37,592 nucleotides of DNA from Chitinophagaceae bacterium (GTDB lineage: Bacteria > Bacteroidota > Bacteroidia > Chitinophagales > Chitinophagaceae). Numbering within the stretch: position 1 is the first letter of the stretch; each line of letters opens with the position of its first letter. Shown piece by piece: positions 4,953 through 35,544 of the stretch. The stretch is taken from contig SCQT01000079.1 in the NCBI GenBank assembly GCA_004322015.1, forward strand, positions 1-37,592, in the 5' to 3' direction. Position numbers and translations under genes: made by a program. The notes beneath the pieces are model-generated. The model saw nothing but the letters and a program-made list of their open reading frames with translations. It searched no databases and was not told the DNA's origin.

Positions 4953-5813
4953 TTATAAAGTGAGCATACAATTGGCAAGGACCCAGCCTTCTCTGCCATC
5001 GGAAAGCTTTATTTTTCGCCATTCTCCCACTTCATCCGTAATCTTTACTTTCAGTCCTTCATGAATGACCAACAGGTCAGCGCTGCCGGAATCGGGTGCA
5101 GTCTTCACCTGTTCTTCTGGAAGGATGATAACGGCCAGATCATGATGGCTTCTGTGATACCAGGAACCTATAGCACCTGACAAATAGATACAAAACAGGA
5201 CAGCAAAAATATAAACTAACCATTTAGTCCATCGAGGTGCAGGCTTCCTTAATGTGCGCCAGCCTGTTACGATGATCAGCAACCAGAAAAAAGTAATGCT
5301 TCCCGCCATCCATCCGTTGGGATGATGAAGCCGAAGCATGTGGTGCCACCAGCGAATGAAAAATAAAGTGGGTATTTGTTCGATCTTGTCGGCAGCTTTT
5401 TGTTTGGCAAGCGAAAGATTATTCTCGATCACTTCATTCCCGGGTGATTGTTGCAATGCTTTCTCAAAATAATAAACGGCATATCCCAAATGATTAGCCT
5501 GATAATTAGCATTCCCCGCATTATAATATAATTCTGGATTTACATAGCCTTCATCCGTCAATTGTTGATAAAGCTTTGACGCAGAATCGTATTCCTGTTC
5601 CTGATAAAGCTGATTGGCTTTGTCAAAAATCTGTTGTGCAGTGGCGACATTTATCTTTTCTGTTGATTGAGAAAATCCCGATCTGTAAAAAAATAAAATG
5701 CCGGTTAATGCTATACCGGTAGCTGATAATATAAAGTTTTTAATTCTCAAATGATTTATTTTAAGCGAATGATTTCCCAAAGGCTTTTTAAGATCAGGGA
5801 ATGATTCGATCAT
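4953..5813 (-). CDS. batE: BatE-like protein: TPR plus C-terminal SH3 domain
   Basis: 286 residues. An N-terminal hydrophobic segment (about 25-45) is followed by two or three TPR-like helices (about 55-130, with LYYNAGNANYQANHLGYAVY and YFEKALQQSPGN). Two transmembrane segments follow (about 165-182 and 198-218), then a bacterial SH3 domain (about 225-285, ending in REGWVLANC). This is the architecture of BatE in Bacteroidota Bat (aerotolerance-related) operons. It overlaps batD by four bases (ATGA), so the two are translationally coupled. The biochemical role of BatE is not established; TPR and SH3 parts suggest a scaffold facing the periplasm. batA, batB and moxR are not in this window. 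Confidence 0.75.
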   Translation of the reverse strand: MIESFPDLKKPLGNHSLKINHLRIKNFILSATGIALTGILFFYRSGFSQSTEKINVATAQQIFDKANQLYQEQEYDSASKLYQQLTDEGYVNPELYYNAGNANYQANHLGYAVYYFEKALQQSPGNEVIENNLSLAKQKAADKIEQIPTLFFIRWWHHMLRLHHPNGWMAGSITFFWLLIIVTGWRTLRKPAPRWTKWLVYIFAVLFCIYLSGAIGSWYHRSHHDLAVIILPEEQVKTAPDSGSADLLVIHEGLKVKITDEVGEWRKIKLSDGREGWVLANCMLTL

Positions 5814-7777
5814 GATTTTTTAAATTGTTCTTCCAGATGGGTGATAACCGTGACCGCGTCCCGATAAGTTGTCTTCATTTGTTCATGCCCTTCCGATCCC
5901 GCATATAAAGCCACTTCGCAATTATCCAATAATTCAAAAAGCTTTTCGGGTGTGTGACCATTCACCTGTTTTTCAAAAAGCTTTTCCTGTGCTTTTTGTT
6001 TACTTAATTCTGCATAAGGGATATCGAACTTATCGCAGAGGTACCCCCATACGGCCTGGGATACTTCATTGTAGAATTCTTTGGGTTTATTCTGTTGTAA
6101 AAACTGGTTTGCCTGGCTTAGGCGTTTTAGCGCTATGCGGTTTGCCCGTTTATTTTTTAATAATACCGTATTGGATTGCAATGAATCATTTCTTCTTTTC
6201 AGCAAATACAGCAAAACCAGTATTACCAGGGGAATAATCAGCAGAAGCCAGTACCACCATGTGCCAAAGCCTAATAATCCAGCTTTACTCCATACCAGCC
6301 TGCCATTACGAATCGGCTGGAGCACATTGTTTCCTTCCGGAGTATAATTAATGCTGTTGCCGTTTTTATTGCCGCCGGGCGTAACATCTAAAGTAAATGC
6401 AGACGTTTCAATGGTTTTATATTCTTCCTTTGCCGGGTCAAAGTATGCGAATTTGACGGGCGGTATGGTAAAGTTCCCCGCCACTTTTGGCATGAGCACA
6501 TAGGTAAAGGTTCTGCTTCCGCCGTAAGGATTACTGTTCGCATTTATTTTGTCGGTGATGGTAGGCGTATAATTATCGAAATCACTTGACAGATCTACCT
6601 GAGGCGCTGATAATAAAGAAATATTACCTGTACCGCTAATGGTAACTTTTAATGTCGCAGCATCGCTGGCGCTCAATTTCGTTTTATCCACTGAGGCATT
6701 AATGGTATAGTTACCGACTGCCCCTGTGAAGTCTGCCGGCTTTCCTGCTTCAGGTAATGGTTTTACGTGAATCATCACAGGCGGACTGGAAGTATTGTAG
6801 TCATAATCGTGATAAGTCACATCACTGCCTCCGAAAGCCTGTTGAAAGAATGGATCATTTCCAATAGCGCTTTTGAAGAACGGATCATTCATAATATCCT
6901 CGAACGGGTCACTACTGTTAGTCTTTTGCCTCTCCACCGTATATAACCTCACCGTATTGTCCACCTCCGCGGGATCCAGTTCTAAGGTGCCCGACTGTAA
7001 GGGAAACAGCATCGTTTTACGGATGATGAATACTTTAAAAGGTATACCATTTACATCTTCTACAGAAGGCTGTATGGGATAAGACAGTTTAATGTCATGA
7101 GACGAAAATCCTGTAAAAGAAGGAACTTTAGTCACCTGAGACGAGGTAGGGAGGCGGGTGAAAAGCTTATAAGTGGCTGTTATTTGTTGTCCCGCATATA
7201 CGTTTGTTTTATCCACATTCACTTTTACAAAAACATTTTTTTTAATCTTTTCCATTGGGCTCTCTCCGTTGCGGAGAATGCCTGGTTGTGACTGGAGTTG
7301 TCTTTGTAAAGCAGGGGGCGCGAACCCAAAAGGATTGGGGGCTTGTGGAGCAGGGTTATTGCGGCTTTGGTTATTATTAGAGTTAGCATATCCTTTCTCA
7401 ACACTGACAGAAATCGGATTAGACTGCATCTGGTCACCGTCAATACGGGCTTTGGCGCCGGCGATAGTATATCTTCCCTGGGCGTTGGCCTGAAGGATAA
7501 ATTCAAAGGTGACGCTCTGGCTTACTTTACCATTGATCATGCTGGTGGACTGACTTTGAGAACGGGATAATATTTCAAAACCACGAAATGCAGGCGCCTG
7601 GAAGCCGGAGATATTGGAAGCATTATTAATAGTGAACTGTACCCGGAAGGGTTCCCCCACTCCCACCTGCGTGCTGCTGACAGCAGTTGTAAATTGCACT
7701 CCCTGTGCCCATAGGATACCCATGCCCTGGAGCATAAAGGATATTGTTAATAACCACTTTTTTATCACCTTTTCCAT
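5810..7777 (-). CDS. batD: BatD-like membrane protein (Bat system)
   Basis: 655 residues from the ATG at 7777. A GTG three codons upstream is in frame, but the -7 promoter element makes the ATG more likely. A signal peptide (about 1-25, ending near LWAQG) is followed by long beta-sandwich repeats of the BatD type. Examples are QFTTAVSSTQVGVGEPFRV at the start, VNVDKTNVYAGQQITATYKL in the middle and INASVDKTKLSASDAATLKV later. One transmembrane helix lies at about 505-526 (WYWLLLIIPLVILVLLYLL), then a helical cytoplasmic tail. BatD proteins work with the VWA proteins BatA/BatB and a MoxR ATPase in the envelope; the exact task is unknown. It leads its own two-gene unit here. Confidence 0.85.
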   Translation of the reverse strand: MEKVIKKWLLTISFMLQGMGILWAQGVQFTTAVSSTQVGVGEPFRVQFTINNASNISGFQAPAFRGFEILSRSQSQSTSMINGKVSQSVTFEFILQANAQGRYTIAGAKARIDGDQMQSNPISVSVEKGYANSNNNQSRNNPAPQAPNPFGFAPPALQRQLQSQPGILRNGESPMEKIKKNVFVKVNVDKTNVYAGQQITATYKLFTRLPTSSQVTKVPSFTGFSSHDIKLSYPIQPSVEDVNGIPFKVFIIRKTMLFPLQSGTLELDPAEVDNTVRLYTVERQKTNSSDPFEDIMNDPFFKSAIGNDPFFQQAFGGSDVTYHDYDYNTSSPPVMIHVKPLPEAGKPADFTGAVGNYTINASVDKTKLSASDAATLKVTISGTGNISLLSAPQVDLSSDFDNYTPTITDKINANSNPYGGSRTFTYVLMPKVAGNFTIPPVKFAYFDPAKEEYKTIETSAFTLDVTPGGNKNGNSINYTPEGNNVLQPIRNGRLVWSKAGLLGFGTWWYWLLLIIPLVILVLLYLLKRRNDSLQSNTVLLKNKRANRIALKRLSQANQFLQQNKPKEFYNEVSQAVWGYLCDKFDIPYAELSKQKAQEKLFEKQVNGHTPEKLFELLDNCEVALYAGSEGHEQMKTTYRDAVTVITHLEEQFKKS

Positions 7778-7787
7778 AAAACACACG

Positions 7788-14092: not shown

Positions 14093-14698
14093 CTACTTCC
14101 ATCGCAAGGTTTCTAACAAATGCCACATATCCTGCTGCACGAAATGCACTACAGGTTTAATTGAATCTGCATTAGGGACAGCGTAAAAATACAAGGCGCC
14201 ACGCAGAAAATGAGCAGTGCTGTCTGTGGCAAAGAATTGCCTGGCAGTGGCAGCGTCTCCGCTGATATTATAAAAAATACCGCTGACATGATAGGGCGTC
14301 TCAAATTCTTCCGGAATAATGGCATCCGCTTTTTCCGCGTTCTTGTATGTCATTTCGTAACAGTCATTAATCAGCTTATTCAATGAATATTTTTTGCCGA
14401 TGATTTTATAGCTGATATAAATTTTTCCATGAAATTGAGGGAATTCTACATTGATCCACCAGGGATTTTCTGTTTTTTCATTAAAAAAAGAGGTGTCTTT
14501 TTCTATTTTGGCATATACCGGATATTGAAAAGTATAAGGATATCCCGGTTCGTTAAAGACCTGATATTTTCTTTCAGGAAATTTTATTCTGAAATAACCT
14601 CTTGGTCTGGGTGTATAGGAAGACTGGCAGGCGTATAAAAAAGTACCCGCTAAAATCATCACCACAATGACAAGAATAATCTCTTTTATAGTTTGCAT
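14093..14698 (-). CDS. gldD: Gliding-motility lipoprotein GldD
   Basis: 201 residues from the ATG at 14698; an in-frame GTG at 14704 would add two residues and overlap the gldE stop as GTGA. A lipoprotein signal (hydrophobic stretch, then LYAC with lipid-accepting Cys24) is followed by the characteristic TPRPRGYFRIKFPERKYQ segment (about 29-46) and a conserved globular domain. GldD is an essential accessory of the Bacteroidota gliding/type 9 secretion apparatus, but it is also kept in non-gliding species, so motility is not implied. It is directly downstream of gldE and almost certainly cotranscribed with it. Confidence 0.9.
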   Translation of the reverse strand: MQTIKEIILVIVVMILAGTFLYACQSSYTPRPRGYFRIKFPERKYQVFNEPGYPYTFQYPVYAKIEKDTSFFNEKTENPWWINVEFPQFHGKIYISYKIIGKKYSLNKLINDCYEMTYKNAEKADAIIPEEFETPYHVSGIFYNISGDAATARQFFATDSTAHFLRGALYFYAVPNADSIKPVVHFVQQDMWHLLETLRWK

Positions 14699-14700
14699 TT

Positions 14701-16083
14701 TCACAGATCCCCCGTCTCAGGCTTTATGGTTATCTTCACTTTTTGGATTCTCATCTTATTTACTTCCAACACTGTAAAGTCAAAGTTTTTATATGTGATT
14801 ACCTGGTTAACTTCGGGAAATGCACCTGCAATTTCCAGGATCAGTCCTCCCAATGAATTACTTTCTCCTATCGCATCTTCAAACGTTAAGGGGGAGATAT
14901 CCAATATCCGGCACACGTCATTTAACATTGTTTTTCCCTCAAAGATATAATCGTTGTCGTCTATTTTCCGGTAATAGAATTCCTCTTTATCAAATTCGTC
15001 TTTAATATCGCCGATGACTTCTTCCATAATATCTTCCAAAGTAACGATTCCGCTCGTCCCGCCGAACTCATCCACTACAATGGCAAAATGAATATGTTGA
15101 GATTGAAATTCCCTTAAAAGGTCTTCTATCAGCTTATGTTCATGAATGTAATAAGGCTGGTGCATGATTTCATGCCAGTCGAAATTTTCCTTTTTATTCA
15201 GATGCGGCAGCAAATCCTTGGTGTGGATCATTCCGGCGATATTGTCAAGATTACCTTTATAAACAGGCAATCTCGAATAATGCAATTCACCCACTTTGGC
15301 GATGAGTGTTTTAAAGGAGATATTATATTCTATTCCCGAGACATCTAACCGGGTACGCATAATCTGCCTGGCAGTGATATTCCCGAAGCTGATAATGCTG
15401 CGCAGCATGTTTTTTTCTTCCGTACTGGCAGATTCTTTTACGGAAAGCTCGATGGCTTCATCAATATCTGCGGAACTGATCGGAGAATGGCTTCTCCTGA
15501 ATATTTTGTTACTGAGCCAGTCGGAGGCTATCAGAGAAGCATTGCATACCGGTTCAAGCATATTGAGCAGCCAGCTGACAACAGGTGTTGCAAAAAGGGC
15601 CATGCGCAGGTTGTTTTGCATCGCATAAACTTTTGGAAGGATTTCGCAACATAACAGGAGTATAAAGGCGATGATGACTATTTTTAAGAAAACAGATAAG
15701 GCGAAATGCTGCTCTGCGCTGACTATTTGTTCCAGCAGTTCATTGAGAATGAAGATAATGGCCAGATCTGTAACGGTGGCAGTGGTTACCAGTGCAGACA
15801 TCAACAGGCGCGGCCTTTCCAGCAGCACCGGAATAAGCCTGGCATTATTATTTTCTTTTATCTTCAGCATGTCCAGGTCTTTGGTGGTTAAAGAAAAATA
15901 AGCCACTTCGGAACCTGAGACGACGGCTGAGAGGATCATCAGCAGCAGGCAGATGATAATCAATATGGTGACGTCTGTTGCGTTAAAAGCTGCAGGAGCC
16001 TGAAGTAAAAATACACTTGCTGAATGGTAATCCAATGACTGATATTTTGATGAAAAAACAATAAGAAAGGGAAAGTAATTCAT
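14701..16083 (-). CDS. gldE: GldE: DUF21/CBS/CorC membrane protein
   Basis: 460 residues. After an N-terminal hydrophobic stretch come the DUF21 (CNNM) membrane segments (about 37-200, with SGSEVAYFSLT near residue 58). A CBS pair follows (about 225-350, with RTRLDVSGI, YSRLPVYKGN and HIHFAIVVDEFGGTSGIVTLED), and then a CorC_HlyC domain at the C-terminus. This is the GldE architecture, related to HlyC/CorC/CNNM transport proteins. GldE and GldD work together in gliding and type 9 secretion. The gene order mutY-ssb-gldE-gldD is conserved in Bacteroidota. A -7 promoter word lies just upstream, so gldE may also start its own transcript downstream of ssb. Confidence 0.9.
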   Translation of the reverse strand: MNYFPFLIVFSSKYQSLDYHSASVFLLQAPAAFNATDVTILIIICLLLMILSAVVSGSEVAYFSLTTKDLDMLKIKENNNARLIPVLLERPRLLMSALVTTATVTDLAIIFILNELLEQIVSAEQHFALSVFLKIVIIAFILLLCCEILPKVYAMQNNLRMALFATPVVSWLLNMLEPVCNASLIASDWLSNKIFRRSHSPISSADIDEAIELSVKESASTEEKNMLRSIISFGNITARQIMRTRLDVSGIEYNISFKTLIAKVGELHYSRLPVYKGNLDNIAGMIHTKDLLPHLNKKENFDWHEIMHQPYYIHEHKLIEDLLREFQSQHIHFAIVVDEFGGTSGIVTLEDIMEEVIGDIKDEFDKEEFYYRKIDDNDYIFEGKTMLNDVCRILDISPLTFEDAIGESNSLGGLILEIAGAFPEVNQVITYKNFDFTVLEVNKMRIQKVKITIKPETGDL

Positions 16084-30471: not shown

Positions 30472-31626
30472 TCAGAAATTCCATTTTAATCTTAGAAATC
30501 CTTTATAAGCTGCACCCTGCACCCTGTTTTGCATCTCTAAAAAAAAAGATTGAAAGATCATATCTATATCGAGGTTAGGCGCCAGATTATATTTTAGGGA
30601 CGGGAGAAAAATAAAAAGATTCATACCCGGAGAGTAAACGAAGCTTAATGATCCTGTCAAGAGGGGAGTAAATTCTTTTGAAGCCATTACAATAAAACTC
30701 CATTGAGCCGGCATCAGATTCGTAGGTGAGAATTCGAAGCTTATCTTTGACCAGTTTTCCAGGGGTTTTGAAAGTCCTCTGCTGTTATACAAAAAAGAGC
30801 TACTAAAATACCATCCGTTTTTGAAAGCATAATCAATTTCCATTGTCGTATTAAAAACGGAGACAGAATCATCTGCTTTTGAAAAATATTGTGCTTCACC
30901 TTTGAAGCCGGCATCACCGATACTGCCGGCCCATCATGTTCCTAATGTGAAACGACTTCGATAAATCCCACCTGTAAATTGGAAATCGTAGCCCCATTGG
31001 TTAGTTGCATATTTCGCAGCGATAATTGTTTTTTTATCTCCAACGGAAGAAGCCTCTGCCAGTTCAATGTTAGAAAAGTCGCTGATCATATATTGAAATT
31101 TCACAGCATCGGATCCAGGCCGCTCCTCATAGTCAAAATCGAGGAAATTATAAGTATTGAAAATATCGTTCGGATTCCAGATGGTGGCAACTCCCCAATT
31201 AATGCGTTGTCTTCCTGCCCTCACCTTCCATTTTGTTTCCCGGACTTCCATCCATAAACGTTCAATATTGGAATGCAATATCAAACCGGATTTGTTCAAC
31301 CATACGACCGAAAGGTTCATCCATTCATTCCCGTTGCGAAGATTTTTGGCAAAATCAGGAATGAGTTTGACCTCATCGCCCCAAAACAAACGGTTACGGA
31401 TCTCTACCGCAGCGATATATTGTGTAGAAGGTTTCCATTTGAGATTTATTCTGTTATGGATGAGATTGCCGCTAATGAGATTATCAGAATTTTTATCGAA
31501 ACTTAATGACTGAAGATCTTTTATATAACCATTCAATTCCCATTCTTTTTTTGTTTCTACACTATCCTGCGTTTGGCCTGCCTGGGTTTTAAAAAAAAAT
31601 AATATAATCAACAAGAAATATTTCAT
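30472..31626 (-). pseudogene. Outer-membrane barrel protein interrupted by an in-frame TGA
   Basis: Read from the ATG at 31626, the frame has a signal peptide (MKYFLLIILFFFKTQAGQTQ) and barrel-like strands. One is a conserved-looking RAGRQRINWGVATIWNPND segment, followed by DYEERPGSDAVKFQY. It stops at TGA 30934-30936 (codon 231). The same frame then continues without another stop, from WAGSIGDAGFKGEAQYF to the end at 30472, so a single codon splits a protein of about 384 residues. A GGA-to-TGA change (Gly in a LGTGWAGSIGD context) would explain it. It may be a recent nonsense mutation, a sequencing error or programmed readthrough. It is the last gene of the ABC/LolA-like operon, one base after the ATPase stop, and probably the outer-membrane component. 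Confidence 0.75.
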
Positions 31627-31627
31627 A

Positions 31628-32350
31628 CTACGAGTTAATATGATGCGGTATTGAAGTTTCCACGACTGCTGTATCAGATGAAATTCGTCCATCTACCAGG
31701 GTGATCACCCGTCTCGCTCTCTCTATTACCCGTGGGTCATGAGTGGAAAAAATAAAAGTCATCCCTTCCTCCTTATTCAATTTATCCATAATGTCTAAGA
31801 GATTGGAGGCAGATTTGGAATCGAGATTTGCAGTAGGTTCATCGGCTAATACAAACTGTGGCTTGGATGCTAAAGCTCTCGCTACTGCTACACGTTGTTG
31901 CTGGCCTCCCGAAAGATAAGCCGGCCTGCTGTTAATCCTGTCCTCCAAACCAATCTGCTTAAACAACTGAGTAATTCTATTTTCCCTGTTTCTTTTTTTA
32001 ATCCTCTGCAACAGCATGATGAATTCTACGTTTTCTCTGGCAGTAAGCACCGGAATGAGGTTAAAAGACTGAAACACAAAACCAATATTATGCAGGCGAA
32101 AATTGATCAGTTCATTGGCAGAAAGCCGTGTAATGTCAATTCCATTGATAAAAATATTTCCATTGTCAGGCTTATCCAACCCGCCGATAAGATTTAACAA
32201 TGTTGTTTTTCCTGAACCTGAGGGCCCTACCAGAGCCGTGAACTCTCCTTTCTCCAAATGCAGATGCACATTGTTGATCGCATAGACCGGAATGGTCTCC
32301 GGGTTATACACTTTACTGATATTATGAGCGTCAATCACCGTATTGTTCAT
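31628..32350 (-). CDS. ABC transporter ATP-binding protein (LolD/MacB type)
   Basis: 240 residues from the ATG at 32350; the frame extends upstream without a better start. All ATPase motifs are intact: Walker A GPSGSGKT (42-49), Q-loop FVFQSFNL (91-98), signature LSGGQQQR (146-153), Walker B FVLADEPT (166-173) and H-loop His204 in FSTHD. The sequence belongs to the LolD/MacB/FtsE branch that drives FtsX-like permeases rather than classical importers. It starts 8 bases after the second permease and ends one base before the barrel gene, so it is embedded in the five-gene operon. Confidence 0.93.
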   Translation of the reverse strand: MNNTVIDAHNISKVYNPETIPVYAINNVHLHLEKGEFTALVGPSGSGKTTLLNLIGGLDKPDNGNIFINGIDITRLSANELINFRLHNIGFVFQSFNLIPVLTARENVEFIMLLQRIKKRNRENRITQLFKQIGLEDRINSRPAYLSGGQQQRVAVARALASKPQFVLADEPTANLDSKSASNLLDIMDKLNKEEGMTFIFSTHDPRVIERARRVITLVDGRISSDTAVVETSIPHHINS

Positions 32351-32358
32351 AAAATATT

Positions 32359-33573
32359 TTATCTTCTTAATGCTTCCACCGGTTGTAACCGCAGCGCTTT
32401 CACCGCCGGAAAAATGCATGCGATCAAAGCTGTTCCCGTTACGATCATCATCACTCCAAAAACCCTTTCTGCCGGAAACTCGGGGTAGATCATAGTGCCA
32501 AATCCAAAGCTTGACATCATTTCTTTTCCCGAACCGGAAAAATCCAATCCGTTTTTATTATAATAATTGATAACTATCCATCCGAGGAATAAACCAAAAG
32601 GTGTTCCTGCCAGCGTAAGGAACATTGTTTCCATTAATACCAGAAGAAAAACACGAAGCCTGTTCATTCCCAATGCGACCATCATTCCCACTTCCTTTGT
32701 TCTTTCAATGATCGCCATCAGCATCGTATTGACAATGCCAAAAGCCAGCGCAAGCATGATGATAAACATAATCATGTAGGAATATTGATCTACGGTATTT
32801 ACCAACAATTGAGTCTCGGGTGAAATCTCTTTCCAGGATTCAATAAGCGTTTCCGGAAATTTTTGCTTCAGCCGGTTCTGAACTTTTTCCAGGTCCTTGT
32901 CTTTATTCAGCAATAATGCTATTTCGTGAAAAGAGTTTCCAGTACCTAACAGTATGTTCAGATCGCTCATTCTCACATACGCATTTTTTTCGTCTAAAGG
33001 GGCATTATCTGACTGGTAAATCCCTGTCACCCTGAAAGCTCCTGATACAATATTGCCGCTTGTGTCTGTGAAAGTGAGCACTAACTTAGAGCCGGTTCTT
33101 AATTTCATTTTAACCGCCAATTTCTTTCCGATCAGAATCTCATTTTTTTTATTGCCTGAAAAGCCGGTTCCTTCAATAATCTTTTTCTGTAATTGAGATG
33201 TGCGATATTCCAATTCCGGAATAATTCCATTGATCTGAATTCCCGAACTGCCGGTAGCAGTGGAAAGCATCCCCTGGGTAACGCTCCTGGGTGCAGCATA
33301 TTTTATCTCAGGGATGAGACGGATTGATTTTAAAATTTCATCTCCATTTTTTAAAACAAAAACAGGTTCATAATCCTTTTTAAATTCAGGATGATGGATT
33401 TGAAGATGCCCCACTTCGGCTTCTATCACGGTTCGGATGCGGCTCTTCATCATACCGTTATAAAGAGCCAAGACAGAAATTCCGGCAAATAAACCTATTA
33501 CTACAGACAGCATGATAATGATGCTTCGTATTTTGTTTCGCCAGATATTTCGCCATGCCATCAGGTAGATCAT
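32359..33573 (-). CDS. FtsX/MacB-like ABC permease (second)
   Basis: 404 residues with the MacB/LolC topology: one N-terminal helix (about 17-37, IIIMLSVVIGLFAGISVLAL), a large periplasmic domain (about 38-260) and three C-terminal helices. The FtsX core AIIERTKEVGMMVALGMNRLRVFLLVL follows the second helix (its key part is ERTKEVGMMVALGM). The protein ends in FPAVKALRLQPVEALRR, the usual P.xALR coupling tail. Such permeases move no substrate across the inner membrane but transmit ATPase strokes to the periplasm. It follows the first permease by 7 bases, and the two likely form a heterodimer as in LolC/LolE. Confidence 0.9.
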   Translation of the reverse strand: MIYLMAWRNIWRNKIRSIIIMLSVVIGLFAGISVLALYNGMMKSRIRTVIEAEVGHLQIHHPEFKKDYEPVFVLKNGDEILKSIRLIPEIKYAAPRSVTQGMLSTATGSSGIQINGIIPELEYRTSQLQKKIIEGTGFSGNKKNEILIGKKLAVKMKLRTGSKLVLTFTDTSGNIVSGAFRVTGIYQSDNAPLDEKNAYVRMSDLNILLGTGNSFHEIALLLNKDKDLEKVQNRLKQKFPETLIESWKEISPETQLLVNTVDQYSYMIMFIIMLALAFGIVNTMLMAIIERTKEVGMMVALGMNRLRVFLLVLMETMFLTLAGTPFGLFLGWIVINYYNKNGLDFSGSGKEMMSSFGFGTMIYPEFPAERVFGVMMIVTGTALIACIFPAVKALRLQPVEALRR

Positions 33574-33580
33574 AACAAAT

Positions 33581-34798
33581 TTATTTTTTCATTGCCTTGA
33601 CAGGATTTAACCTGAATGCTTTGTACATGGGATACAGAGACAATACCAAACCGATGATCAACACTATAATTCCCTGATAAATAAAATTGAAAGCTGCGGT
33701 TGAAGCAGGGAAAACCGCTTCGAAACCGAAACGTTCGTATGCTTTTGCAGTCTCGCCGCCAATGCGAAGCGGATGGACATTTAAATAAAACACCAGAGGG
33801 ATACTTAGGATAATTCCTAATATGCATCCGCATAAAACAGTAAATATTGATTCAATTGTCAATAAGGCCGCTAATTTTATCTTCTTCATTCCCACAGCTA
33901 CCAACATCCCCATTTCGAATTTTCTTTCCACCATCATCATCAGTAATGTCCCCAAAATACCGAAGCTGATAAGCAGGTAAAGGATCCAATGGACGACCCG
34001 CATGTTCTTGGAATCGGTCTCGATATGTTGTTTGATGTCCGGTGATATTTCTCCCCATGTCATCACTTCATATTCGTTTCCGATGGCAGATCGTATCAGA
34101 GAAGATGTTGCTTCTAACTCAGAAGGATGATGAAGAGATAATACAAATGAAGTGATATTATCTCCTGCCCCATACATGTCCTGTGCAAGCGGTAAAGGCA
34201 TAAATAAAGAGCGGTCATTCAATTCGGGCGAACCGAATTTCACTATTCCTTTTATAGAATATTTTCCGGCTGCAGTAGTGCCATGATAGCCCTGACCTAT
34301 CAAAATAATGGTATCGCGAGCTTTCAGTTTCAGTCTTTCTGCCAGGCCTTGCGAAAGCAGCACCGCATGATCATTGTTCTCAATATAATTTCCTGAGATC
34401 AGTTTGCTTCTCAGCGAAGTGATCCTGTCTTCTCCCTTGGGGTCAATACCTACCACCATGCTGCCTTTGGTGATATTTCCGGAAGACACCAGAGCGAAAG
34501 ATTCCAGACGCGGGGCAAGGGATACAATATTCTTTTGCTGCAGAATCTTTTGTTCCAGTTCTTTATCGGGACTAAAACTGTTGTCCAGAACTTGTTCATC
34601 CCAATATCCCTTTTTATGAATCTGTATATAGCCTGTATAAAAACTCACGACGTTTTTTACCAGGTTGTCGAATATGCCTTCTTTCAAGCTGCTTGCAGCA
34701 ACCGAAAGAATAACGGCAAAAAAGATTGCCGCCATTGTAATAGCGGTGCGTTGACGATTTCGCCACATATTTTTCCATGCAAACCGGAACAGCCACAT
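33581..34798 (-). CDS. FtsX/MacB-like ABC permease (first)
   Basis: 405 residues with the same layout as its downstream neighbour: N-terminal WKNMWRNRQRTAITMAAIFF, one helix, a large periplasmic domain (about 40-265), then three helices with MVERKFEMGMLVAVGMKKIK and the tail LYPMYKAFRLNPVKAMKK. The two permeases are related but clearly different, which fits a LolC/LolE-style heterodimer. The start codon overlaps the stop of the LolA-like gene by one base (TGATG), indicating translational coupling. Confidence 0.9.
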   Translation of the reverse strand: MWLFRFAWKNMWRNRQRTAITMAAIFFAVILSVAASSLKEGIFDNLVKNVVSFYTGYIQIHKKGYWDEQVLDNSFSPDKELEQKILQQKNIVSLAPRLESFALVSSGNITKGSMVVGIDPKGEDRITSLRSKLISGNYIENNDHAVLLSQGLAERLKLKARDTIILIGQGYHGTTAAGKYSIKGIVKFGSPELNDRSLFMPLPLAQDMYGAGDNITSFVLSLHHPSELEATSSLIRSAIGNEYEVMTWGEISPDIKQHIETDSKNMRVVHWILYLLISFGILGTLLMMMVERKFEMGMLVAVGMKKIKLAALLTIESIFTVLCGCILGIILSIPLVFYLNVHPLRIGGETAKAYERFGFEAVFPASTAAFNFIYQGIIVLIIGLVLSLYPMYKAFRLNPVKAMKK

Positions 34799-35544
34799 CA
34801 GCTTAATGTTTTCATTTTTTCAGTTATAAAAAAATTATCCTCGATCGCTTTATTGAACTGAACATTTTTATATATCATTTCAGTTTTCTGATTCTTTTTA
34901 TCGGCAGGTATCATTTCAAAATGAGTAGGTATCAGCCTTCCGTCCATTAATTTTATGTCATAAGCATTCATTGTATTGATCAGTTTGCCATCTTCATCAT
35001 AAAACAGTGTGTGCAGCTCCAGATAATCCTTCTTATCAATCCAAACGATCACTTTACTCCATACGACTGCCGTTTCCGGTTTAGGGATCATTTGAATGAT
35101 GTAGCAATTACGATTGTCAATTATCGTGTCTCCAATGATGCTGTGATCGTAATCATTCACAATGGATGATTCTTTTACCAGATCATCATTGGTGAAATCA
35201 GTGCCCATCCATGACTGGCTCATCATGGACGGGGGCAGTTTGATTGTTCTTTCCAAAGCGGGCATCCAGTTCCAAACTTCTTTTTTGCGCTTGAGGAAGA
35301 CTATACCTTTATCTTTTGCAGGGGACCGGATCAATATCATTGAATAATCTGTTCCTTTTACCCATGCTTTGATATCCATTTCTCTTGACCATGCGGGGCG
35401 TACAGTCCGGATGGTCATTTCCACTTGTGAAGTATTTCCCCGCATTTTTTCATCCGCTTTTTGGACAATGGATCTTGCATCCTGGGAAAAAACAATCAGT
35501 GGGCTCCATAACAACAGAGTAAAAAGTAATAACCATTTCATCAT
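34798..35544 (-). CDS. LolA-like periplasmic protein (outer-membrane lipoprotein-sorting family)
   Basis: 248 residues with a signal peptide (about 1-21, ending IVFSQ) and no lipobox. The mature part matches the LolA-like family often annotated 'outer membrane lipoprotein-sorting protein'. It shows DARSIVQKADEKMRGNTSQV at the start, then MTIRTVRPAWSRE, GIVFLKRKKEVWNWMPALER, the conserved MSQSWMGTDFTNDDLVKES-type segment (key residues SWMGTDFTNDDL), and ELHTLFYDEDGKLI. The LolA half-barrel binds acyl chains of lipids or lipoproteins in the periplasm. It is the first gene of the operon with two FtsX-like permeases, the ATPase and the barrel. An ATG pair opens the frame. Confidence 0.88.
   Translation of the reverse strand: MMKWLLLFTLLLWSPLIVFSQDARSIVQKADEKMRGNTSQVEMTIRTVRPAWSREMDIKAWVKGTDYSMILIRSPAKDKGIVFLKRKKEVWNWMPALERTIKLPPSMMSQSWMGTDFTNDDLVKESSIVNDYDHSIIGDTIIDNRNCYIIQMIPKPETAVVWSKVIVWIDKKDYLELHTLFYDEDGKLINTMNAYDIKLMDGRLIPTHFEMIPADKKNQKTEMIYKNVQFNKAIEDNFFITEKMKTLS

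Follow-up and report, generated by a model that had tools for sequence, protein, structure and literature searches.

A conserved five-gene unit of Bacteroidota joins a LolA-like carrier, a Lol-type ABC pump and a porin-fold barrel, a candidate exporter of hydrophobic molecules

The passage of lipids and other hydrophobic compounds through the periplasm is understood in few cases. Type VII ATP-binding cassette (ABC) transporters have shown or proposed roles in the extraction of hydrophobic molecules (the literature is cited, here and below, from parts of the sources), and one of them, Escherichia coli YbbAP-TesA, is thought to extract such molecules for a periplasmic partner (PMC12646458). AmeABCD of Castellaniella defragrans, which comprises a DUF1302 barrel, a LolA-superfamily protein and an HAE3 pump, serves the efflux of apolar monoterpenes, and its deletion lowers monoterpene tolerance (PMC6394551). 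For the Borrelia BBJ23-29 cluster, a type VII ABC transporter, a LolA-like protein and an outer-membrane barrel have been proposed to transport a non-polar ligand (PMC13078400, 2026), while in Porphyromonas gingivalis the TetR-MMPL-LolA_like operon PG1175-81 is repressed by excess hemin and induced by low iron. Here we analyse a unit of five genes in a 37,592-nucleotide stretch of DNA (hereafter the window) from a Chitinophagaceae bacterium (assembly GCA_004322015.1, contig SCQT01000079.1), encoding a LolA-like carrier, two FtsX permeases, a LolD-like ATPase and a predicted outer-membrane barrel. We propose, with a probability of about 0.6, that these five genes specify an accessory exporter, one that would carry a small lipid or a hydrophobic molecule across the cell envelope.

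Gene set and its recurrence

All five genes are on the minus strand, in the order carrier, FtsX1, FtsX2, LolD-like ATPase and barrel. The carrier and FtsX1 genes overlap by 1 base and the successive gaps are of 7, 8 and 1 bases:

34798..35544, minus strand: LolA-like periplasmic carrier, 248 amino acids; PF17131 (LolA_like), E = 4.1e-57; overlaps FtsX1 by 1 base
33581..34798, minus strand: FtsX1, type VII ABC permease, 405 amino acids; MacB_PCD and FtsX (Pfam)
32359..33573, minus strand: FtsX2, second type VII ABC permease, 404 amino acids; MacB_PCD and FtsX (Pfam)
31628..32350, minus strand: LolD-like ATPase, 240 amino acids; ABC_tran, E = 5.3e-37
30472..31626, minus strand: outer-membrane barrel gene, ATG at 31626, 384 codons if read through; an ortholog is modelled as a beta-barrel
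30934..30936, minus strand: in-frame TGA inside the barrel gene; this column holds Gly in 13 of 13 aligned relatives

The coordinates agree with the genes, overlap and gaps listed by the first-pass annotation, a reading of the DNA alone, and Pfam confirms the families it had assigned to the first four, the barrel having only a match below threshold. The MacB_PCD and FtsX permeases, the separate ATPase of LolD/MacB type and the matching fold place the set in the type VII ABC superfamily. No membrane-fusion protein and no TolC were matched by Pfam among the five genes, and a MacAB-like tripartite pump was rejected on this ground; no TPR match was found among them either. The window lies on contig C46 of a 4.5-Mb genome in 300 contigs; among named genomes, its closest relatives come from the Chitinophagaceae and from other Bacteroidota.

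To describe recurrence we used 247 Bacteroidota genomes, each at least 90% complete and including that of the window, with ortholog cut-offs of E up to 1e-60 for the carrier, 1e-10 for the barrel and 1.1e-82 for FtsX2. Carrier orthologs account for 58 of 92 PF17131 places, the 34 weaker places (26 of them read) being taken as paralogs, and FtsX2 for the 60 best rows (57 genomes), below which the rows are mostly FtsX1, plus paralogs in genomes G180, G261 and G288. The carrier was found in 58 genomes, the barrel in 60 and FtsX2 in 57; all three occur together in 57 genomes, and at least one of them in 60. For 52 of the 58 carriers, FtsX2 and the barrel are both encoded on the same strand no more than 8 kb away, and each of these 52 loci runs carrier, FtsX2, barrel. 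Because this order recurs in 52/58 loci across the phylum, the five genes are a real unit, arranged beyond chance. The first-pass annotation had made its idea of a shared pathway depend on relatives keeping the carrier and barrel beside the ABC genes, and nearly all of them do. A compact unit in which an outer-membrane channel would be coupled with a Lol-type motor is present in about one quarter of the sampled Bacteroidota (60/247 with at least one of the three marker genes, 57 with all of them) and in at least one Vibrio, V. campbellii having all five genes in identical order.

Among the six exceptions, G246, G264 and probably G336 are breaks at contig ends. The barrel is on a different contig in G332, and about 5 kb past the ATPase gene in G351, while G359 keeps the ABC genes as remnants only. 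Two further exceptions come from the hand-picked loci described below: G060 has its barrel on another contig, and in G064 the carrier and barrel genes are adjacent, with FtsX1 and FtsX2 on that contig at a distance of about 84 kb, so that carrier and barrel can stand as a pair by themselves. In G064 a second, short barrel-like fragment is found about 1 kb upstream of this pair (locus L125). Carrier, FtsX2 and barrel therefore co-occur even where they are unlinked (G064, G060, G332). G230 and G153 have a barrel and no carrier ortholog, and there the barrel adjoins an MMPL gene.

Reading of individual loci gave the same picture, with neighbouring genes taken from a simple frame caller that missed some genes in G+C-rich or overlapping stretches. 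All five genes stand in the same order in 12 of 13 loci found through FtsX2 in named genomes, the other being cut by a contig end, and all five are present in 16 of 19 further loci picked by hand from the same taxonomic order. Several loci were chosen by hand and not at random; L120, one of these 16, is the same stretch of DNA as L043, and two loci are both from G133. Decayed copies of the operon occur in L119, from the same family as the window, and in L051. The two G133 loci (L123, L124) are two copies of the operon, each with a tandem pair of FtsX1-like genes, and in L124 a 298-amino-acid gene, CHAD-like by eye, stands between the ATPase and barrel genes. In L056 (G336) two PF17131 genes are neighbours, one closing an ABC set of reversed order and the other heading a set of the window type.

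The genome also allows comparison with the housekeeping Lol system. The nearest solved relatives of the carrier are 3buu, 9tp6 (P. gingivalis LolA3), 3bk5 and 4z48, and it is not among the matches of the Pfam LolA family PF03548 at E 0.01; the only PF03548 match of the genome is on contig C117, separate from the window. Against the NCBIfam lolCE model FtsX2 scores 146 bits and FtsX1 109 bits, below the equivalog cut-off of 362, and two better matches elsewhere in the genome (228 and 186 bits) are likewise under it. The best NCBIfam match of the ATPase is LolD, nearest by a small margin and, at 226 bits, below the equivalog cut-off of 307.75. No LolB-like gene is among the five, which have the barrel instead; LolB was not searched for in the rest of the genome. 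Since the genome holds another LolA and better LolC/E matches, the five-gene set is, by sequence, not the housekeeping Lol system. The same observations, taken with the patchy presence and the decayed copies, suggest that the system is accessory in nature.

Related loci with other pumps

The 26 weaker PF17131 loci that were read divide by gene content into 12 with MMPL, 11 with LolD/FtsX and 3 with neither. A related barrel is present in 10 of the 12 MMPL loci. In L052 and L053 the genes are MMPL, barrel, carrier and TetR; L068, L069, L079, L080 and L081 are MMPL loci with a barrel, which is DUF1302 by Pfam in L079, the sole one tested; and L070, L083 and L085 have a more distant barrel. Profile comparison (hhalign) links the barrel of the window type to these three groups with probabilities of 98.9% (L052/L053), 95.6% (L068 and its group) and 98.6% (L070 and its group).

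The ABC loci are more varied. In 9 of 11, a gene of 284 to 396 amino acids beside the ATPase gene shares the most conserved stretch of the barrel (87%, 65 columns), and the one tested had no Pfam or NCBIfam match. The order is reversed in eight of these nine, the 284-396-amino-acid gene coming first and the carrier last, and the carrier is first in L071. The other two (L086, L088) are a one-permease variant with LolD-like, FtsX and LolA-like genes and a secreted-looking protein of 426 amino acids, which has no profile link to the barrel (3.8%) and, in L086, no Pfam or NCBIfam match.

As related carriers and barrels lie with either MMPL or ABC genes, the pair recurs, by sequence comparison, with two kinds of pump. 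This gives direct support to the earlier suggestion that a mechanotransmitting ABC pump here replaces the MMPL pump of the resistance-nodulation-division (RND) superfamily, the carrier and a related barrel standing beside MMPL in 10/12 loci.

A cluster of fatty-acid/polyketide type in E. coli GF66.1 (L050:3655-18448) contains an ABC ATPase, one permease with an annotated internal stop, a PF17131 protein and a hypothetical protein of 462 amino acids. The query for this island cluster matched 375 of 5426 genomes, and the cluster was read in one strain. We considered it as the same system and regard it only as a parallel, the 462-amino-acid neighbour having no profile link to the barrel (0.3%).

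Barrel and permease models

The barrel frame had first been taken to be open down to position 30472. This does not hold, as the TGA at 30934-30936 splits it into listed frames of 252 amino acids (from an upstream start) and 123 amino acids. Beyond the TGA the frame can be aligned with relatives to its final residue, with 55% identity to the L034 ortholog over the whole row, and it is the sole barrel match of its genome at E 1e-10 (7 of 12 candidates scored). The stop may be a mutation or an assembly error, which sequence alone does not separate. The DUF1302 match of the window barrel is below threshold (20.4 bits, cut-off 23.2; Pfam), and it is the profile link of 95.6% that connects it to a group with one DUF1302-called member. 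No Omp85 model of Pfam matched the two window fragments, and the porin-like fold matches described below do not exclude others.

The intact ortholog of L034 was modelled as a beta-barrel, with a mean predicted local distance difference test (pLDDT) of 80.8 and a predicted template modelling score (pTM) of 0.75. The model fits MOMP, chitoporin, OprD/Occ and AlgE with Z of 21 to 24 and a root-mean-square deviation (rmsd) of 2.8 to 4.3 over 283 to 313 aligned residues; no FadL chain is among the 50 fold matches listed, which excludes nothing. The most conserved part of the family, residues about 137-172 with the motif GRQRINWG...WNPND...DFDYEERxG, connects two strands and may form a loop that folds inward, its middle being modelled at low confidence. 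Barrel frames end in Phe or Tyr in 41 of the 44 counted, including both window fragments.

The AlphaFold model of FtsX1 (mean pLDDT 77.4, pTM 0.62) is closest to the Lol permeases. Its best row is LolE (Z 29.6, rmsd 3.7, 372 aligned), followed for LolC by Z 26.4 (rmsd 4.4, 365 aligned), and full-length LolC and LolE chains overall give Z of 20 to 30. The fit to MacB is poorer (Z 17.4, rmsd 6.0, 334 aligned), and another type VII permease, the heme exporter HrtB, gives Z 21.8, rmsd 7.4 and 331 aligned. Sequence comparison with solved structures puts LolF first and LolE second for both permeases; for FtsX2, MacB outscores LolC. A fixed regular expression for the FtsX1 hairpin matched 17 of 41 FtsX1 proteins and supports no claim.

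Proposed function and known systems

On our best reading the unit would work as LolCDE and LolA do, but with a channel as its end point, with interchangeable pumps and often with linkage to TetR or MarR regulators. The ABC part would use ATP to lift a lipid or hydrophobe out of the inner membrane, the LolA-like protein would take it into its hydrophobic groove and ferry it across the periplasm, and the porin-fold barrel would receive it from the carrier and release it outward. Carrier and barrel would then be a delivery module, joined by evolution to different pumps. Cargo, direction and the contacts of the carrier with permease and barrel are what we infer in this scheme. Whether there is, more broadly, a widespread Lol-derived class of exporters, in which a portable module of LolA-like protein and porin-fold barrel is coupled to a pump of either type VII ABC or RND kind, with neither LolB nor a continuous tunnel, has about an even chance of being right. 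The scheme predicts a hand-over from carrier to barrel, for which we know of no characterised precedent, and the same delivery module could be compared under two energy sources.

Directly upstream of the carrier there is a TetR (9) or MarR-type (6) gene in 15 of the 38 loci read, one TetR being divergent (one call of each type was checked by Pfam), and in 7 loci the TetR gene overlaps that of the carrier or stands no more than about 25 bases from it. The window has neither, and a divergent DNA polymerase X-like gene stands there. MlaE-ABC-MlaD-type genes lie in the fetched flank of 5 of the 13 named-genome loci (L034, L039, L040, L042 and L044), some of which are syntenic and not independent. 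We rejected a link to heme or siderophore uptake through a FecCD-type importer, as the genes concerned in L040 match MlaE, MlaD and an ABC ATPase in Pfam. Genes for CHAD, DUF2267, universal stress proteins and P-type ATPases occur near the operon in some of the Mla-flanked loci, and these surroundings are possibly a stress island. Elsewhere in the window, at 14096-14704 and 5813-7786, are genes for the gliding lipoprotein GldD and for a BatD-like protein, ordinary in Bacteroidota.

Several observations weigh against an exporter of this design. We aligned 27 FtsX1 and FtsX2 sequences with E. coli K-12 LolC, in which we take R163, Q181 and R182 to form the Pad and P167-P179 the Hook. The Pad residues are absent in 27/27, column 163 holding Val (22), Ile (4) or Tyr (1) and no Arg, and Q181 and R182 being gapped in every sequence. 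The hairpin corresponding to the Hook is shorter by six residues than that of LolC. Of the 13 Hook positions, 11 are occupied throughout the 27 sequences, but LolE, which has no Hook, occupies 12, so that the alignment alone does not discriminate. Of the permease features named at the outset, the LolE/LolC fold was thus recovered in the FtsX1 model, whereas the Pad was not (0/27) and the Hook hairpin is shorter. By fold the barrel mostly resembles solute porins, and also the polysaccharide exporter AlgE, but not lipid channels, and in the loci read no biosynthetic gene recurs constantly beside the unit. The window copy may also be inactive, because its barrel carries a premature stop. The initial proposal of a dedicated exporter therefore gains from the conserved unit and from the exchange of ABC for MMPL, is weakened in the window by the barrel stop, and still rests on inference for cargo and direction.

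The Lol affinities could also reflect a second, specialised route of lipoprotein sorting, in which FtsX1/2 and the LolD-like ATPase extract particular lipoproteins, the carrier ferries them and the barrel places or exposes them. The proximity of the permeases to LolF and LolE by sequence, that of FtsX1 to LolE/LolC by fold and that of the ATPase to LolD, by a small margin, fit such a route, and lipoprotein is one of the cargoes proposed for the Borrelia cluster (PMC13078400). Still, we consider it unlikely: the Pad is missing, and no constant lipoprotein neighbour was seen in the loci read, in which no search was aimed at lipoproteins. The carrier is related in sequence to P. gingivalis LolA3 (9tp6), which is reported to bind LolB only weakly. 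Flavobacterium johnsoniae, whose LolA3 may, going by its name, belong to the carrier family, is reported to keep gliding and type IX secretion after LolA3 deletion, and its mutant without all five LolA/LolB homologs correctly displayed the surface lipoprotein tested. We have accordingly lowered the lipoprotein-only explanation and keep it as a rival.

The solute-porin matches raise the further question of whether the barrel is a co-regulated general porin outside carrier transport, the ABC proteins and carrier merely extracting or detoxifying membrane molecules; that it lies apart from the rest of the unit in G060 and G332 would agree with this. It is nonetheless improbable, as the barrel tracks the carrier and FtsX2 (57 of the 60 genomes with any of the three), adjoins the carrier without ABC genes in G064 and has relatives beside carriers in MMPL loci. 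Transport could also run inward, the barrel admitting a hydrophobic compound that the carrier brings to the inner membrane. The direction of Mla-type systems is debated, and the MlaE-ABC-MlaD genes next door in several Chitinophagales relatives may be counted for this direction. TetR/MarR linkage, on the other hand, is typical of efflux. In Thalassolituus, levels of MMPL/LolA-domain and porin-like proteins increase on a long-chain alkane, whose passage the authors suggest, but the type VII ABC transporters known from the cited sources extract toward the periplasm or work in it, and we give the inward route only a very slight chance.

The exporter we favour is made of parts that are all of known kind, and the combination of type VII ABC, LolA-like protein and barrel is an idea already proposed, with a different barrel, for Borrelia. 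What is apparently new is this gene set, in which the barrel has a porin fold and the pumps are interchangeable; no description of the five-gene set is among the literature matches listed, in a search whose coverage leaves out most subscription journals and bioRxiv.

The comparison with known systems can be made part by part. With E. coli LolCDE-LolA-LolB the unit shares two FtsX/MacB_PCD permeases, a LolD-type ATPase and a carrier of LolA fold; it differs in its Lol scores below cut-off, the missing LolC Pad, the shorter Hook hairpin, the PF17131 carrier and the barrel in place of LolB. YbbAP-TesA differs in having a hydrolase as partner, no outer-membrane exit and a permease of 10 transmembrane segments, as far as its source describes. 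The Borrelia cluster, whose transport role is predicted, has an Omp85-family barrel, a homodimeric single permease and two TPR proteins, and is found on spirochaete plasmids. The PG1175-81-type operons resemble our unit in that a LolA-type sorting protein is encoded together with a pump under regulation, and related barrels occur in similar loci here, but their pump is RND and not ABC. AmeABCD likewise unites an outer-membrane barrel, a LolA-superfamily periplasmic protein and an inner-membrane pump in one cassette; in contrast to the ABC pump and PF17131 carrier described here, it uses an HAE3 RND pump, a DUF1329 carrier and the additional AmeC.

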